Assembly: GCA_028694915.1 (NCBI GenBank) | Contig: JAQVJY010000003.1 | Span: 1 to 64,000, forward strand | DNA from: Paludibacteraceae bacterium | GTDB taxonomy: Bacteria > Bacteroidota > Bacteroidia > Bacteroidales > Paludibacteraceae | Direction: 5' to 3' | Length of the DNA stretch: 64,000 bases | Shown: piece after piece, positions 7,927 through 64,000 of the stretch | How positions within the stretch are numbered: position 1 is the stretch's first letter | Layout of the letters: every line of letters starts with the position of its first letter | Program-made: the position numbers and the translations under genes | Notes under the pieces: model-generated | Told to the model about the DNA's origin: nothing | The model's input: the letters and a program-made list of their open reading frames with translations, nothing else | Databases searched by the model: none

Positions 7927-10683
7927 ATGGAATATAATTTCAAAGAAATCGAGCAAAAATGGCAGCACTATTGGATTGAGAATGCCACTTACAAAGTTGA
8001 AGTCGATCAAACTCGTCCGAAATACTACGTTTTGGATATGTTTCCCTACCCTTCGGGTGCTGGGTTACACGTGGGACATCCACTTGGCTATATCGCTTCT
8101 GATATATACAGCCGCTACAAACGTTTGAAAGGTTTTAACGTGCTCCATCCCATGGGCTATGACGCTTACGGATTACCTGCCGAACAATACGCCATACAAA
8201 CTGGTCAACATCCTGAAGTAACCACCAAAAAGAACATTGCTCGCTACCGCGAACAAATGGACAAAATAGGTTTTTGCTACGATTGGAGTCGCGAAATACG
8301 CACCTGTGAACCCAATTACTACAAATGGACACAATGGGCTTTCATTCAAATGTTTAACCGCTGGTACTGCCAACGCACCAATGCCGCACAACCCATATCA
8401 GAATTAGTAGAACTCTTTACCAAAGAAGGTAATGCCAATATACAGGCAGCTCAATCGGAAACACCAATTTTCACCGCTGAAGAGTGGAATAATTGGGATG
8501 AGAAAAAGCAACAAGACGTGCTCATGGCTTACCGCATTGCTTACTTGGCCGACTTAAAAGTGAACTGGTGCCCTGCTTTAGGAACCGTATTAGCTAACGA
8601 TGAAGTCAGCGAAGGACTTTCGGTGCGTGGTGGACACCCTGTAGAACAACGCATCATGCGCCAATGGAGTTTGCGTGTATCCGCTTACGCACAACGCTTG
8701 TTGGACGGACTTGATCAACTCGACTGGACAGAATCGCTCAAAGAAACTCAAAAAAATTGGATTGGGCGTTCGGAAGGCGCGCAACTATTTTTCGGTTTAG
8801 CTAATAGCGATGCCAAAATTGAAATATTTACCACCAGAGCGGACACCGTTTTTGGCGTTACATTTATGGTATTGGCACCCGAAAGTGATTATGTGGCACA
8901 ACTTGTAACACCAGAACAAAAAGCAGAAGTAGAGGCTTATCTCGACCGCGTAAAACGTCGTACCGAGCGCGAGCGTATCGCCGACCGCAAAGTGACTGGC
9001 GTATTTTCTGGTGCTTACGCCATCAATCCATTAACAAACAATCAAATTCCTATCTATATTTCGGATTACGTATTGTCAGGTTATGGCACAGGAGCCATTA
9101 TGGCCGTTCCTGCGCACGACAGTCGCGACTACGCTTTTGCCAAACATTTCGATTTGCCTATCATTCCTCTGATTGAAGGATGCGACGTAAGCGAAGAAAG
9201 TTACGATGCTAAAGAAGGTGTGATGACCAACTCGGGTTTCCTCAACGGTAAAACTGTAAAAGAGGCCATCGGTGCCATGAAAACCTACATTGCGGAACAT
9301 AAGCTGGGACAAGTAAAGGTAAATTACCGTTTGCGCGATGCCATTTTCAGTCGCCAACGCTATTGGGGCGAACCATTTCCTGTGTACTACAAAGAAGGCA
9401 TGCCTTATGTGCTGGACGAAAGCAAATTACCACTCGAATTGCCCGAAATTGATAAATATCTGCCTACTGAAAGCGGCGAACCGCCACTCGGACGTGCCCA
9501 AAATTGGAAAACCGACGATGGTTATCCGTTGGAACTTAACACCATGCCTGGTTTTGCTGGTTCATCGGCTTACTACTTGCGCTACATGGATCCGCACAAC
9601 ACCGAAGCATTGGTTGGAAAACTCGCTAACAGTTATTGGCAAAATGTCGATTTATACATTGGTGGCACCGAACACGCCACTGGTCACCTGATTTATAGCC
9701 GTTTTTGGAACAAATTCTTATTCGATTTAGGCGTCATTGTGAAAGACGAGCCATTCCAAAAATTGATTAATCAAGGTATGATTCAGGGACGAAGCAATTT
9801 TGTGTATCGCATTGTAGGTACTAACAAATACGTATCGTACAATCTGAAAAACGACTACCAAACACAAGAAATTCACGTCGATGTCAATATCGTGAGCAAT
9901 GATGTGTTGGATTTGGAAAAATTCAAGAACTGGATGCCCGAATACAAAAATGCCGAATTCATACTCGAAGACGGTAAATATGTGTGCGGTTGGGCAGTTG
10001 AAAAGATGTCGAAATCGATGTTCAACGTGGTAAATCCAGACGATATTGTAGAAAAATATGGTGCCGACACGCTGCGTCTATACGAAATGTTCCTGGGTCC
10101 ATTGGAGCAATCCAAACCTTGGGATACGAATGGCATTGATGGCGTACATCGTTTTTTGAAAAAACTATGGGGACTTTTCTATAAAGAGGAAACCTTATTG
10201 GTTACTAACGACACGCCAACAGCTGAAGAGCTCAAAACGTTGCATAAAACGATTAAAAAAATCACCTACGATATCGAGAATTTCTCGTTCAACACATCGG
10301 TTTCAGCTTTTATGATTTGCGTGAACGAACTAGCTACACTCAAATGCACCAAACGCGACGTGCTGGAACCTTTATTGGTTCTCTTGGCTCCGTTTGCACC
10401 ACATATCACCGAAGAGTTGTGGCACACATTAGGTCACACCAACTCCATTTGCGATGCCACGTTCCCACTGTGCAACGAAGCACATTTAGTGGAAACCAGC
10501 GTCAAATACCCTATTTCGTTCAATGGTAAAGTACGTTTCATACTAGAATTGCCTGCCGACATGAGCAAAGAAGAGGTAGAAAAAACCGCTTTAGCCAACG
10601 AACAAACCACCAAATTTCTCGAAGGAAAACAACCTAAAAAAGTGATTGTGGTTCCTGGTAAAATTGTAAATATCGTTATCTAA
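7927..10683 (+). CDS. leuS: leucyl-tRNA synthetase
   Basis: Class Ia synthetase charging tRNA-Leu. The 918 residues are near the family length. The HIGH-type motif is HVGH in [12 protein letters not shown] (about residue 48), the CP1 editing domain contains [12 protein letters not shown] and [15 protein letters not shown], and the KMSKS loop is KMSKS in [10 protein letters not shown]. Before KMSKS there is a charged insertion (about residues 624-690), as in other Bacteroidota LeuRS. The downstream YitT gene starts 19 nt later without an intervening terminator, so co-transcription is likely. Confidence 0.97.
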
Positions 10684-10702
10684 ATTTTAATACGTTTATT
10701 GT

Positions 10703-11581
10703 ATGATGACTTTCACCAAACCCACTTGGAGCATTGTTAGAGAGTATCTAACTATTGCATTTGGATTACTGATGTACGCGTCTTCGTGGAAAGGTTTTTT
10801 GATACCACACGAAATTACTGGTGGCGGCGTCACTGGTATAGGAGCTATCATTCAATATGGTAGCGGCTTCCCCATATCGGCTACTTATTTTATTATCAAC
10901 GCGTTATTACTTATTTTATCCGTGCGTAGTTTGGGATGGGCATTTAGCCTACGAACTATCTATGGTGTATTTGTATTGACCGCCTTTTTGGCATTTCTTC
11001 CTGCCGCTAAAATTGGAACATTCGTTTCAGAACAAGAACCATTTATGGCGTGCGTGCTAGGTGGATTATTGGCAGGAACGGGCATGGGTATTGTGTTTCT
11101 AAACAATGGCAGTTCTGGAGGCACCGATATTGTGGCCAAAGTAGTGAACAAATACCGTAATATCACGTTAGGACGTGCGCTCTTGTATTGCGACGTATTG
11201 ATTATCAGCTCATCATGGTTGTTGCCAAACGGAAACATTGAAAAAATAGTGTATGGTTTAACCGCCATGGCAGTCACCACACTCACAGTCGATTTGGTGG
11301 TGAATGGTGTACGTCAATCGGTACAATTCTTTATTTTTTCGCACGAATATGCTAAAATTGCCGATGCTATAAATACCGAAGTACATCGCGGCGTGACCAT
11401 TCTCGATGGCACAGGTTGGTACTCGCAAGCACCTGTGAAAGTAATTACCGTGTTAGCACGCAAAAACGAATCGGCCAAAATATTCAAACTCGTAAAAGAT
11501 ATTGATCCAAACGCGTTTGTTTCCCAATCGTCTGCTATTGGGGTGTACGGACAAGGTTTCGATGTGATGAAAGGCAAATAA
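10703..11581 (+). CDS. YitT family membrane protein (DUF161/DUF2179)
   Basis: 292 residues. Five or six hydrophobic segments fill the first 210 residues, with the family motifs GFLIPHEITGGGVTGIG and NNGSSGGTDIVAKVVNKY. The C-terminal 80 residues form the soluble DUF2179 domain (HRGVTILDGTGWYSQAPVKV). Inner-membrane location is expected. The transported substrate or role of this family is not established. It probably shares a transcript with leuS. Confidence 0.92.
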   Translation: MMTFTKPTWSIVREYLTIAFGLLMYASSWKGFLIPHEITGGGVTGIGAIIQYGSGFPISATYFIINALLLILSVRSLGWAFSLRTIYGVFVLTAFLAFLPAAKIGTFVSEQEPFMACVLGGLLAGTGMGIVFLNNGSSGGTDIVAKVVNKYRNITLGRALLYCDVLIISSSWLLPNGNIEKIVYGLTAMAVTTLTVDLVVNGVRQSVQFFIFSHEYAKIADAINTEVHRGVTILDGTGWYSQAPVKVITVLARKNESAKIFKLVKDIDPNAFVSQSSAIGVYGQGFDVMKGK

Positions 11582-59628: not shown

Positions 59629-60045
59629 ATCGAAAAAAGAGAATTAGTTATCAACATCATTCACACCCAAACCTAAATGCACCTTAAAACCGAGCGTTAC
59701 AGCTAGTTTTAAAAAGCCGCTTCTTTTTTTGTAAAAAGATGTTAGGGTTAAAAAATAAATACGTACATTCGTAGCTGGATTTATTATTATCTTATAGATT
59801 ACATACACACCACACATTATATGTTTAGTAAATTTTGGAAATAATATCTAATAAACACAAAAAGAACTACTCAACGCAAATCAAACTTAATTATTAAAAT
59901 AATATAACTAGTCAACCTAATTGTGCTCTCTTTATTTGAATTTTAGAACGTTGAGTTGAAGTACAAACTTTATAAGGAAAATTTGCAAACTAATTATTTG
60001 AGATTATCTTAAAACGTGTCTAATAAATATCTATCTTTGCAAGAT
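59629..60045. other. AT-rich gene-free boundary before the accessory operon
   Basis: About 415 bases, strongly AT-rich, with no supportable ORF. It marks the change from core to accessory DNA. It contains the -7-like element TATCTTTG (60032-60039) on the plus strand. No integrase, tRNA or obvious direct repeat is visible. Confidence 0.6.
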
Positions 60046-61473
60046 ATGGCTACGATTAACGAAATAATGCCTTCTAACGGAGAATACAGTTACAAAATGA
60101 TGAATTTTGAATCATCATTGGCGTCAAGTTATAGGAAAGCAAACGGCGTCTACTATACTGATTTATTATTATCAGAAAGAATGTTAGATGATTTAAATAT
60201 TAGGAATGATTCTACTATATTAGACCCTTGTTGTGGAGCAGGAAGTTTTATTTTTTCTGCAAAAAAGAAAGGAATCAATAACATATATGGAATTGATCTA
60301 GATAAAAATGCCGTAAGTTTCTGTCTAAACCACATCCCTGATATTTCTTGTATACAATTTGATTCTTTAGGTAATAATGGCAAAACAATTCTTAATAAAT
60401 TACAAATTCAAGAAAAGGTAGATTATATAATTGGTAATCCACCTTATTCGCCTATTGATAAAAGCACTACATTTACAACAAAGGATATTGTTTTTAATAA
60501 AAAAGTTGCAGAATCAGGTAATAATTTGTTTGTAGCGGCTCTAATTAGAGCCTTGGAAATGGTAAAACCAAATGGAATAATATCATATATTATTCCTAAG
60601 AATTTTCTACATATAAGTTCCTATGGCAAGTTGAGAAAAGATTTGCTGAAACAACACACTATAATTTCAATAGTTGATATTGGAGCTTATTTTAAAAATG
60701 TTCGTGGAGAACAAATTATATTAACAATTCAAAATTGTTTACCCAAAGACAATAACAATATTATTATAAAGAAACTTGTTAATACTGAATTTGTAGCTCA
60801 AACTCAAGTCCCTCAAAAATATTTTTCAAATGAAATAATACTTTTTAATAGTGATGAGGACTTTTCCATTTATAATAAATTAAACTCCACATACCAAAAA
60901 CTAACGGATATTTGTCTTGGTTATATAGGAAGAGGAAAATCCAAAAATTTAAATGCCATTACCGGAAAAGAGATTAGAAAGTTTGGTTTAAAAAATACAA
61001 CATCTAATTTAGATGGTAATCAAATATTTATCCAAAACATCTATAGCACTGAATCTGGCATAATCGCGGCTTTTGCTGGAAATTTATCCGCAGGTGAGAC
61101 TGTTACTGTATTGACAGATGGGAACAAAGAAATGTGTAAGTTTATACTTGGTATTTTACACTCAAGATTGTGTAACTTTTTTCTCTACCATTATTGCTAC
61201 AATTATTCAAAACTTACAATGCACACAGATCCTAAATACCTCAAAAAAATACCTTTACCAGACACAGAATCACCTCTTTTTAATAAAATTGTACAATGTG
61301 TTGAAAAAATTGAGATGGATGAATATATGTCAAAATCATGGTTTGATAATGTAGAAGTCCTAAACAAATTAATTTATAAAATTTACAAAATTAAAAGAAA
61401 TGAATCTCAATATATCGATAAAGAAATGAGATTCGTTCAGTCTAATAAATGGCAAAATAATGGAATATTCTAA
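60046..61473 (+). CDS. DNA adenine-N6 methyltransferase (M1)
   Basis: 475 residues from ATG at 60046; an in-frame GTG at 60016 adds 10 residues, but the element TATCTTTG lies between them. Motif X/near region KANGVYYT, motif I DPCCGAGSF (60-68), and motif IV NPPY (131-134, in VDYIIGNPPYSPID), so the order is I then IV, gamma class, as in Eco57I/TaqI-like enzymes. The C-terminal half likely recognises the target site. Methylation of adenine is inferred from NPPY. It overlaps the next gene by 14 nt. Confidence 0.9.
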   Translation: MATINEIMPSNGEYSYKMMNFESSLASSYRKANGVYYTDLLLSERMLDDLNIRNDSTILDPCCGAGSFIFSAKKKGINNIYGIDLDKNAVSFCLNHIPDISCIQFDSLGNNGKTILNKLQIQEKVDYIIGNPPYSPIDKSTTFTTKDIVFNKKVAESGNNLFVAALIRALEMVKPNGIISYIIPKNFLHISSYGKLRKDLLKQHTIISIVDIGAYFKNVRGEQIILTIQNCLPKDNNNIIIKKLVNTEFVAQTQVPQKYFSNEIILFNSDEDFSIYNKLNSTYQKLTDICLGYIGRGKSKNLNAITGKEIRKFGLKNTTSNLDGNQIFIQNIYSTESGIIAAFAGNLSAGETVTVLTDGNKEMCKFILGILHSRLCNFFLYHYCYNYSKLTMHTDPKYLKKIPLPDTESPLFNKIVQCVEKIEMDEYMSKSWFDNVEVLNKLIYKIYKIKRNESQYIDKEMRFVQSNKWQNNGIF

Positions 61474-62233
61474 AAAATGTAATGATTTATCTGGAAAAGA
61501 ATGGCTTCAAAACTCTTTTAGTATTTGGCGGAATTTAAACAAAACAAAAGAGGAAAAGGATTTTAAACATCCTGCATCATACCCAGTAGAGCTGTGCGAG
61601 AAAATAATTAGGACATTTGCTAAATCTGATTGCAAAGTATTAGACCCTTTTAATGGTATTGGATCAACTGTAGTTGCCTGTCATAATCTTAATTGTCATG
61701 CTGTAGGCATTGACTTGTCAAAAGAATTTTGTGATATATCAAAGAAAAGAATAGAAAATGATTCAAAAATACAAATCATTAATGGTGACAGCTTTGAAGA
61801 ATTAAAAAAATTACCCGAAGAGCATTTTGATTTATGCTTAACTTCACCGCCATATTGGGATATTCTCAACATGAAGAGAAGTGCAGATATGAAAGAAGCC
61901 ATAAACTATTCTCAGAGTTTAAATGATGTTGGAAATATCCCTAATTACGATGAATTTATAGATAAACTTAAAAAATTGTTTATTGATGTTCAAAGAGTAT
62001 TAAAATCAGGTGGTTATTGTGTTGTAAATGTTATGGATATAAGAAAGAAAAGTGAATTTTATCCACTGCATAGTGATTTATCTACTGCATTGAAAGAAAT
62101 CGGATTTATCTATGACGATTTAATTATTTGGGATCGACAATCAGATTATAATAATATGCGACCTCTAGGATACCCATACAAATTTAGAATTAATAAAGTG
62201 CATGAATATTTAATGATTTTCATAAAAAAATAA
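61460..62233 (+). CDS. second DNA methyltransferase (M2)
   Basis: 257 residues. An N-terminal HPASYPVELCEKII (motif X-like), motif I DPFNGIGST (62-70), and motif IV TSPPYW (128-133), then SGGYCVVNV. The TSPPYW form is commonest among N4-cytosine methyltransferases but occurs in N6-adenine ones too, so the methylated base is open. No long target-recognition domain is obvious. Two different methyltransferases in one operon suggest an asymmetric recognition site, each strand protected separately. Confidence 0.88.
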   Translation: MEYSKKCNDLSGKEWLQNSFSIWRNLNKTKEEKDFKHPASYPVELCEKIIRTFAKSDCKVLDPFNGIGSTVVACHNLNCHAVGIDLSKEFCDISKKRIENDSKIQIINGDSFEELKKLPEEHFDLCLTSPPYWDILNMKRSADMKEAINYSQSLNDVGNIPNYDEFIDKLKKLFIDVQRVLKSGGYCVVNVMDIRKKSEFYPLHSDLSTALKEIGFIYDDLIIWDRQSDYNNMRPLGYPYKFRINKVHEYLMIFIKK

Positions 62234-62239
62234 TGACTC

Positions 62240-62689
62240 ATGACTGATCAAGAATTTTACACTGTTTTAGGATATCTTACAAATCCTACAAGAGAAACAA
62301 ACATCGAAGTTGAGTTACCATCACAAAGACAAACTCGTTTTATTTCTGAGTATGCTTCATGGACAAACAATCACCCTTTGCCATTAAAAACCTCTACAGC
62401 TCCTTATTATGTTTGGCCTATTGGTACAAACAAATACGGATTAGAAGTTCGTTTATATTTTATTTCTAACAATAATATGCCACAAATTCTCGATGCAATG
62501 TTAGAGCCTCGCAAAATTCAGAACAGACCTAGTTATGAAAATTGGGAGAGAAGAATAAGCTTAAAAGACCATATTATACCATTTTTACAAAAAGGTTTTG
62601 TTTTAGGTCGAGTACAAGATAAAAATAGAATTAGAACTTTTGTCCCAGCCCAATTCTTTGCAAATTTCGAATATGGTTATAACCTTTAA
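62240..62689 (+). CDS. hypothetical protein between methyltransferase and LAGLIDADG genes
   Basis: 149 residues, no recognisable domain. It is rich in aromatic and charged residues, with a Trp-Pro motif (YYVWPIGTNKYGLEVRLYF) and no nuclease motif that I can see. No signal peptide or membrane helix. Gaps of 6 and 11 nt to its neighbours place it in the operon. It could be a small subunit of the restriction complex, but this is only inferred from context. Confidence 0.7.
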   Translation: MTDQEFYTVLGYLTNPTRETNIEVELPSQRQTRFISEYASWTNNHPLPLKTSTAPYYVWPIGTNKYGLEVRLYFISNNNMPQILDAMLEPRKIQNRPSYENWERRISLKDHIIPFLQKGFVLGRVQDKNRIRTFVPAQFFANFEYGYNL

Positions 62690-62700
62690 GCTAATAAAAT

Positions 62701-63588
62701 ATGAATACAGAAATGTCATATTTACTTGGATTAATATCTGGAAACGGTGAAATAAAAAGAGGTGCAACTGAAACTATAATCTCAATTGATATTCCACACA
62801 AAAAGTTAGTTACAGAAAACGATCAAGATGTAAAAATATATGTAAAGGCTAGTATCTCGGACATTCGAGGAATAATTGAGCCACTTATTGGCACTGGTAT
62901 TATTTATACACAACAAGATACAAATACTATTTTGTCTTTCTGTAAACCAAATACCGATTATTTGATGAGAGAGATATTAAGATATGTAGGTCGTGCCTCA
63001 TCACATGAGAACATTCGTATCAGCAAAGATATGTTTTCTTTTAGCCAAGTTGAAAAAATATATTTTCTTAGAGGCTTTGCAGATACTACTGGGTACATTA
63101 GGAGAAGTAATTATTTCTTTGAACCATATTGTCATCGAGTATATTTAGAAATTCCACATAATTGGGAACTTGTGATTGATGTATGTAATCTGTTAAAAGA
63201 TGTTGATATTCCTGTTCAGACTATTGATTGGGCTCACCCAAACATGAGAGATGGCAACTTGACTAAATATAAACAAGGTAAACCAAATTTCTGGAAGAAA
63301 GAACATCAGTTAAAAATATGGGCAAATGAATTTGAAAAAATCGGTTTCGCTGTTTTACATAAGAAAGAAGCGTTATCAATTTTTTCCGAAGAATTGATTG
63401 ACGGAATTATTGACAGAGGGAAAAATGTTGCTTCCTTCACTCACAGATACTATTGGGAAGGAAGAGAATCAAATAAAATTAAACCTATACATCCATCCGA
63501 GAACGATATGTTTATTCCAGATTCCATACGTGGTAAACATTATTCTTCATGGAAGGAAATTGCAAAAAACTTAGGATATAAGAAATGA
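62701..63588 (+). CDS. degenerate LAGLIDADG-fold protein
   Basis: 295 residues with two LAGLIDADG-like motifs: LLGLISGNG (residues 9-17) and LRGFADTTG (123-131), about 114 residues apart as in single-chain homing endonucleases. The acidic catalytic residue of the eighth position is Asn in motif 1 and Thr in motif 2, so cleavage is doubtful and a DNA-binding role is plausible. In this operon it may recognise the target of the nuclease encoded next. The last codon overlaps the nuclease start (ATGA). Confidence 0.8.
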   Translation: MNTEMSYLLGLISGNGEIKRGATETIISIDIPHKKLVTENDQDVKIYVKASISDIRGIIEPLIGTGIIYTQQDTNTILSFCKPNTDYLMREILRYVGRASSHENIRISKDMFSFSQVEKIYFLRGFADTTGYIRRSNYFFEPYCHRVYLEIPHNWELVIDVCNLLKDVDIPVQTIDWAHPNMRDGNLTKYKQGKPNFWKKEHQLKIWANEFEKIGFAVLHKKEALSIFSEELIDGIIDRGKNVASFTHRYYWEGRESNKIKPIHPSENDMFIPDSIRGKHYSSWKEIAKNLGYKK

Positions 63589-64000
63589 GAGAGTTTGAGC
63601 TATACGAACCAATGAGAATTTGGTTGCAATCATACCTTGAATCAAATTATAAGCATCAAGAAATTATTACCATTGATGCACATAGCGAGCGCTTAGACAG
63701 AGTGCTTCGAAAATTTGGAATTCGATGTGATATTGCAACGGGAGTTGACATACAAATTGACATTTTAGGTATTGTAAAAAATGAACATTCATTTAAGCTA
63801 TTTTTTATAGAAGCAAAAAAAACAAGTTTGAATCTTCGTGATTTAGGTCAATTGTGGGCTTACTGCAAATTGATTGATCCGGAAGAAGCATTTTTGCTTA
63901 CTTCTGAAGATTTAGGAAGTCTAAATAAGATCTTAAATGTCTATAAAAGAGAAGACCTACTTGATTTTGGAGATGGAAAATTCATAAAAAAAATGAAAGT
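63585..64000 (+). CDS. PD-(D/E)XK nuclease, 5' part (truncated by window end)
   Basis: The first 138 codons are in the window and the gene continues beyond it. Residues 55-79 read as D59 in an IDILGIV strand, then FFIEAKK with E76 and K78: the PD-(D/E)XK pattern D-x16-E-x-K. A GQLWAYCKLIDPEEAFLLTSED stretch follows, typical of the core helix and strand. Probably the restriction endonuclease subunit of this operon. ATG overlaps the previous stop. Confidence 0.82.
   Translation, partial: MREFELYEPMRIWLQSYLESNYKHQEIITIDAHSERLDRVLRKFGIRCDIATGVDIQIDILGIVKNEHSFKLFFIEAKKTSLNLRDLGQLWAYCKLIDPEEAFLLTSEDLGSLNKILNVYKREDLLDFGDGKFIKKMK

Follow-up and report, generated by a model that had tools for sequence, protein, structure and literature searches.

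The LAGLIDADG fold is suited to sites of about 20 bp, and it serves in more than one capacity; the bI3 LAGLIDADG maturase, for example, helps an RNA intron to splice. A further case is WhiA (DUF199), described in PMC11701221 as a transcription factor in which a helix-turn-helix domain is also present. Type II restriction enzymes are grouped, in the accessible part of a review (PMC4081073), into PD-(D/E)XK, HNH and GIY-YIG enzymes, with PLD enzymes also treated, and the same part describes the large subunit of R.BspD6I-type enzymes as the one that both recognizes and nicks. The locus considered here lies at the end of a stretch of 64,000 nucleotides, referred to throughout as the window (Paludibacteraceae bacterium, assembly GCA_028694915.1, contig JAQVJY010000003.1, positions 1 to 64,000 of the forward strand). 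Its central element is a gene at 62701..63588 on the + strand for a LAGLIDADG-fold protein of 295 residues without acids at position 8 of its motifs, named LAG here and proposed to be a sequence-recognition subunit.

Judged by gene content and structural models, LAG is probably the subunit that recognizes the target in a Type II restriction endonuclease composed of two subunits and acting at an asymmetric site, a reading in which we place good confidence. It also appears fairly likely from the models that recognition rests with the dead LAGLIDADG protein, encoded by its own gene, and cutting with a separate, minimal PD-(D/E)XK protein. The initial annotation had suggested that LAG might have become a recognition module for a neighboring nuclease, and this idea is supported by the PD-(D/E)XK-like gene directly downstream, named NUC here, which is joined to LAG in all 57 loci.

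Predicted fold of LAG

The open reading frame of LAG is intact, is not inserted in another gene, and is neither intron- nor intein-encoded. Motif 1, LLGLISGNG (62722..62748, + strand, residues 8–16), carries Asn15 (62743–62745) at position 8, and motif 2, LRGFADTTG (63067..63093, + strand, residues 123–131), carries Thr130 (63088–63090) at the same position, with Asp128 at position 6. An AlphaFold2 model, for which 53 aligned sequences served as input, reached a mean predicted local distance difference test score (pLDDT) of 90.8 and a predicted template modeling score (pTM) of 0.90. In this model, a helix at 3–15 is followed by a strand at 16–20 and a helix at 116–130 by a strand at 131–133, such that each motif is helical and position 8 closes the helix. 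This succession of helix and strand, with the break at position 8, is what LAGLIDADG helices are expected to show. With the reading frame intact and both motifs helical in the model, the initial description of two recognizable motifs with Asn and Thr at position 8 is confirmed.

A Foldseek comparison of the model with the PDB returned LAGLIDADG proteins throughout among the 50 matches listed, with the bI3 maturase as the best (E 1.3e-6), and with I-DmoI at 4.4e-6 and WhiA at 8e-5. Superposition by VIA-align gave Z 14.7 with PI-SceI (root-mean-square deviation, rmsd, 3.9; 187 residues aligned), Z 13.1 with I-DmoI (rmsd 2.9, 165 aligned), and Z 13.0 with WhiA (rmsd 3.3, 183 aligned), the latter covering model residues 1–239 of 295. 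LAG is predicted with high confidence to adopt a two-motif LAGLIDADG fold, a likeness that is not a matter of chance, and the structure prediction envisaged by the initial annotation as a check came out in its favor. In Pfam, matches of LAG remain below the cut-off, with sub-threshold Hom_end matches in 5 of 53 members and LAGLIDADG_2 in 1 of 53; sequence searches of the PDB with the profiles A1, A2 and A4 and with the distant locus L084 gave no match, and both LAG and NUC are without a match in PADLOC and PHROGs.

Homologues and conserved residues

When 84,980 species were scanned, each represented by a single genome, 49 LAG loci were found, with 52–72% identity over nearly the full length. 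Together with three from viral contigs, two from plasmids, two from phages and the window copy, this makes 57 loci with 55 different LAG sequences; loci L059–L064 repeat L052–L054 and were not counted. Two distant relatives, L079 and L081 (37 and 32% identical to LAG in alignment A4), were detected in a search with NUC and not with LAG.

Asn15, Thr130 and Asp128 are each present in 57 of 57 aligned homologues, the window copy included. L079 and L081 carry Arg at position 8 of motif 1 and Thr at position 8 of motif 2, and Asp128 is retained in both; an Asp or Glu at either position 8 occurs in none of the homologues examined, that is, the 57 and these two. Residue 13, at position 6 of motif 1, is S, C, T, I, V, Y, L or F in the 57 homologues and never acidic. 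Because Asn15 and Thr130 are invariant, the loss of the position-8 acids is, on the alignment, an old and fixed state and not decay in one genome. Whether Asn and Thr are fixed, or whether homologues keep Asp or Glu, had been named at the outset as a check on the idea, and the first of these was found.

The initial annotation had also pointed to a glutamate directly after motif 1. It does occupy this place, but its number is Glu17 and not Glu18. Its suggested role as a shifted metal ligand is unlikely and was rejected because the residue is not fixed: Glu is found in 53 of the 57 homologues, Thr in three, Ala in one, and Thr again in the distant L079. Over the 33 rows of alignment A4, the second half of LAG is better kept than the first, and R134, N137, R146, Y148, E150, H179, N181, R183, W198, K200, E201, H202, Q203 and K205 are invariant; these residues of the second half may be the ones that touch DNA.

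The downstream nuclease-like partner

The NUC gene starts at 63585 on the + strand, overlapping the LAG stop by four nucleotides (ATGA), and extends past the end of the window (63585..64000 inside it, the remainder up to contig position 64061); it encodes 158 residues, and the full gene is found at L002:5586–6062. Its catalytic set consists of D59 (63759–63761), E76 (63810–63812) and K78 (63816–63818), all on the + strand. The model of an orthologue (L003, 79% identical), built from 51 input sequences, has a pLDDT of 94.9. VIA-align gave Z 9.2 with AF1548, 9.1 with PaqCI, 7.9 with EcoT38I, 7.0 with the R.BspD6I small subunit (2p14), and 6.8 with FokI, whereby values under 8 can reflect a common arrangement; residues 1–156 of the model align with residues 3–158 of PaqCI, its cleavage domain. 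D59, E76, K78 and Q89 are each present in 56 of 56 copies, counted without the truncated NUC of L043. On account of these fold matches and this conservation, NUC is, in its modeled form, a PD-(D/E)XK-like core with an intact catalytic set. A single domain fills the whole protein, leaving no space for a separate recognition domain. In L043 (6863–7144), from a metagenome bin, NUC is shortened to 93 residues next to an intact LAG and intact methyltransferases, which may represent an inactivation or an assembly error.

The methyltransferases

Upstream of LAG, on the same strand, lie genes for two DNA methyltransferases. The first (60016..61473, + strand, 485 residues, GTG start) is of the N6-adenine type (N6_Mtase/Eco57I, TaqI-like), with matches to PF02384 (7.4e-18) and PF07669 (1.4e-16), and to the BseCI and TaqI methylases in the PDB. 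The second, M257 (61460..62233, + strand, 257 residues), belongs to the N6_N4_Mtase family (PF01555, 5.8e-34), carries the motif SPPYW, and is presumed from this sequence to be of the N4-cytosine type. As for METHYLTRANSFERASES, a pair occurs at 56 of the 57 loci, and the remaining one (L049) begins at a contig end. The pair of the window (N6_Mtase/Eco57I type plus N6_N4 type) occurs in 39 loci, an EcoRI_methylase-type enzyme plus a C5 enzyme in 15 (seven fused, eight separate), and a C5 enzyme plus an N6_Mtase type in two (L020, L051). In the distant L083 and L084, which are extended versions of the L081 and L079 stretches, respectively, a D12–N6_N4 fusion is present.

SPPYW is found in 39 of 39 N6_N4-type homologues, NPPY in 40 of the 42 rows that matched the N6_Mtase type at E 1e-5 (one frame, that of L009, is truncated at the contig start), NPPF in 14 of 15 EcoRI-type enzymes, and PCQ in 17 of 17 C5 enzymes. 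SPPY marks N4-cytosine enzymes, and NPPY or NPPF mark adenine enzymes. On that reading, each locus would pair one adenine and one cytosine enzyme, which fits an asymmetric site with its two strands protected separately. On the two plasmids, the gene annotated as dcm, DNA (cytosine-5-)-methyltransferase (L055:2180–4282, L056:2115–4217), combines an EcoRI-type adenine enzyme and a C5 enzyme in one fusion protein; the 700-residue plasmid protein matches PF13651 (EcoRI_methylase, 6.2e-118) and PF00145 (2.9e-72).

Linkage and co-evolution

Every one of the 57 loci has NUC immediately behind LAG on the same strand, at -17 to +5 nucleotides from the LAG stop (between -11 and +4 in 53 of them). LAG lies in a methyltransferase–nuclease operon in 56 of the 57, the remaining locus beginning at a contig end. 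When LAG and NUC were used separately as tblastn queries, the same two plasmids and the same two phages were recovered, with none extra for NUC. The distant loci (32–37% identity) keep the LAG–NUC pair beside a third methyltransferase make-up. On the LAG tree (57 rows, 56 labeled), three changes are needed to account for the make-up, and a well-supported clade of ten C5-bearing loci (100/99) is nested among loci of the window type under midpoint rooting; it was therefore the methyltransferases that were exchanged, with the LAG–NUC pair left in place. In terms of gene content, the constant partner of LAG is NUC and not any single methyltransferase. Distances of LAG and NUC correlate with r 0.77 (mirror-tree, 50 non-redundant of 56 loci). 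The ratio of nonsynonymous to synonymous substitution rates (dN/dS), limited to pairs without saturated synonymous change, is 0.04–0.14 for LAG (7 of 11 pairs computable) and 0.03–0.09 for NUC (4 of 11).

Several points weigh against a recognition subunit coupled to NUC. Over the same 34 loci, the LAG–NUC correlation (r 0.68) is lower than that of LAG and M257 (r 0.80); the operon, by these distances, travels together, and co-inheritance does not single out NUC. Furthermore, Foldseek matches of NUC are weak, with MspJI as the best (5.7e-3), followed by BamHI and with none below 1e-3, and all Pfam nuclease models stay below the cut-off. That NUC alone would be without specificity is argued from its size and modeled fold only. 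Finally, L082 holds a NUC homologue without LAG, on a stretch of 7.5 kb that reaches the contig end; this locus may be a remnant, or its nuclease may have switched to another partner. At this locus (L082:2506–5401), the NUC homologue stands beside a PLD-domain protein, weakly matching RE_NgoFVII, and a D12 methyltransferase.

Proposed mechanism and alternative explanations

It can be envisaged from the model that LAG binds DNA and has lost cutting. LAG would sit on the DNA as a pseudo-symmetric saddle, read a short asymmetric sequence, and recruit NUC into a complex; NUC, probably as a dimer like FokI and PaqCI, would then cut beside or within the site, and the two methyltransferases, one acting on adenine in one strand and the other on cytosine in the opposite strand, would protect the host's own sites. 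The asymmetry of the site is suggested by the presence of two methyltransferases from different families in each locus. It is a possibility that a single target is common to all members of the family, because many polar residues in the second half of LAG are fixed while the methyltransferases were swapped.

If true, the LAGLIDADG fold, otherwise familiar from cutting and homing, has been recruited to find the target site for a bacterial defense enzyme, with cutting handed to a small nuclease. This would add a recognition module to those of the restriction enzymes, show that meganuclease-like recognition has been separated from cleavage in nature, and offer a natural two-part nuclease for study, in which one could examine how a fold for sites of about 20 bp reads a short site that methyltransferases can protect.

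Among the alternatives, one would have LAG nick one strand through a rearranged active site, with Asp128 or Glu17, for example, and NUC the other, in the manner of R.BspD6I or BtsI. Heterodimers with one nicking subunit are indeed described in the accessible parts of PMC4081073 and PMC2909958, and Asp128 is invariant in the 57 homologues and retained in both distant relatives, but both position-8 acids are absent in every homologue, position 6 of motif 1 is never acidic, and Glu17 is lost in four of 57 as well as in L079, which leaves a second nuclease site in LAG unlikely.

A regulatory role for LAG, similar to that of WhiA or of a controller protein, by which the restriction genes would be repressed or timed, is a quite improbable alternative. 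WhiA, a DNA-binding LAGLIDADG protein that does not home, is a close fold match (Z 13.0), and many restriction systems carry control proteins; these, however, are optional and much smaller, whereas LAG adjoins NUC in 57 of 57 loci with the genes overlapping or nearly so, and NUC would be left without any recognition part.

Along similar lines, LAG could be a specificity subunit shared by methylation and cleavage, comparable to HsdS or the BsaXI S subunit. M257 is small and its distances track those of LAG (r 0.80), but LAG persists in the 17 loci where a C5 enzyme replaces M257, and C5, EcoRI-type and D12 methyltransferases usually carry recognition regions of their own; a shared subunit is thus very unlikely. 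That LAG is a former homing endonuclease, decaying in the operon by chance, as its fold alone might suggest, is contradicted by open frames in 57 of 57 loci, fixed residues, a dN/dS of 0.04–0.14 and the constant place beside NUC, and was rejected as extremely improbable.

Distribution and neighboring genes

Beyond the coupling of LAG to NUC, the family is widely but sparsely distributed. By record titles, it is found in Bacillota, Bacteroidota, Spirochaetota, Pseudomonadota, Synergistota, Mycoplasmatota and Elusimicrobiota, and also in Thermodesulfobacteriota, Cloacimonadota, Melainabacteria and Saccharibacteria, although many of these titles denote metagenome bins, and individual placements may be wrong. 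A phylum-wide draw gave LAG in one of 395 genomes, the window's own, and a draw from a second phylum with NUC as query gave one of 398, the center genome itself. An order-wide search with NUC gave matches in five of 393 genomes, one being the window's own and one the genome of L036 (G1008, not counted as new). With L081 as query, no match was obtained in viral contigs, and elsewhere only the plasmids and phages already known. Apart from the window copy, a class-wide search with the wider profile A4 gave two weak hits, L086 (E 0.002) and L087 (E 0.006), which were discarded as histidine-kinase-like frames, judging by their sequence and neighbors. Among cultured bacteria, Lactiplantibacillus plantarum P9 is a carrier, on plasmid p9. 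In four annotated records, the gene pair is labeled "hypothetical protein".

In two gut phages (Ca. Heliusvirales; L057 and L058), the system is found in full close to one end of the record, as a phage-borne restriction–modification system; in L058, it adjoins an excisionase gene. In one Saccharibacteria bin, two NUC matches of equal score lie about 9.9 kb apart (G402:C18:377–847 and 10240–10710), which may be due to a duplication or an assembly artifact.

Between M257 and LAG lies an accessory open reading frame of 149 residues (62240..62689, + strand), which the system does not always include: diverged BLAST homologues (E 1e-5) occur in 18 of the 57 loci, either before LAG or after NUC. It has no match in Pfam, NCBIfam, PADLOC or PHROGs, and perhaps represents an accessory nuclease or DNA-binding module. 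In L050 (4925–6004), a NOV_C domain (3.6e-10) comes after the stretch homologous to it, within a single frame. The G+C content of the operon (30.1%, window positions 60016–64000) is low compared with that of window positions 1–59900 (40.1%) and of the sequence beyond the operon (41.8%), which suggests that the operon was horizontally acquired. The operon is followed by an isochorismatase-family gene.

Comparison with known systems

No restriction enzyme with a LAGLIDADG protein as its recognition subunit was found in the libraries and the literature searched, with REBASE and most subscription papers outside its scope. The word LAGLIDADG is absent from the text of the PaqCI paper (PMC10201449); by the counts of a search listing, it is absent from PMC4081073 and PMC12707154 as well. 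MhoVII (PMC12898733) was considered as a relative and dropped on the basis of the portion available, its methyltransferases being of other classes. With cognate methyltransferases in the operon, two of them in 56 of 57 loci, it is proposed that the system still works like Type II restriction–modification; LAGLIDADG would be a recognition fold that the part of PMC4081073 at hand does not name.

With the homing endonucleases PI-SceI and I-DmoI, LAG shares the predicted fold with its two LAGLIDADG helices; it differs in having Asn and Thr for the position-8 acids, in the lack of an intron or intein, and in its company of a separate nuclease and methyltransferases. The bI3 maturase, so called in its PDB title, is likewise a LAGLIDADG protein put to another use, but without a partner nuclease or methyltransferase. 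WhiA resembles LAG in that the fold serves a purpose other than homing, whereas LAG sits in a restriction–modification operon and is coupled to a nuclease. The heterodimers R.BspD6I/BstNBI, BtsI and others are similar in their combination of a small PD-(D/E)XK subunit with a larger, recognizing subunit and, if the proposal for LAG and NUC holds, in an asymmetric site; their large subunit, however, has a nuclease site, while none is recognizable in LAG. In the Type IIS enzymes FokI and PaqCI, recognition and cleavage also reside in separate modules, and NUC resembles the PaqCI cleavage domain and FokI; the difference is that these modules are joined on one chain, whereas LAG and NUC are the products of two genes.
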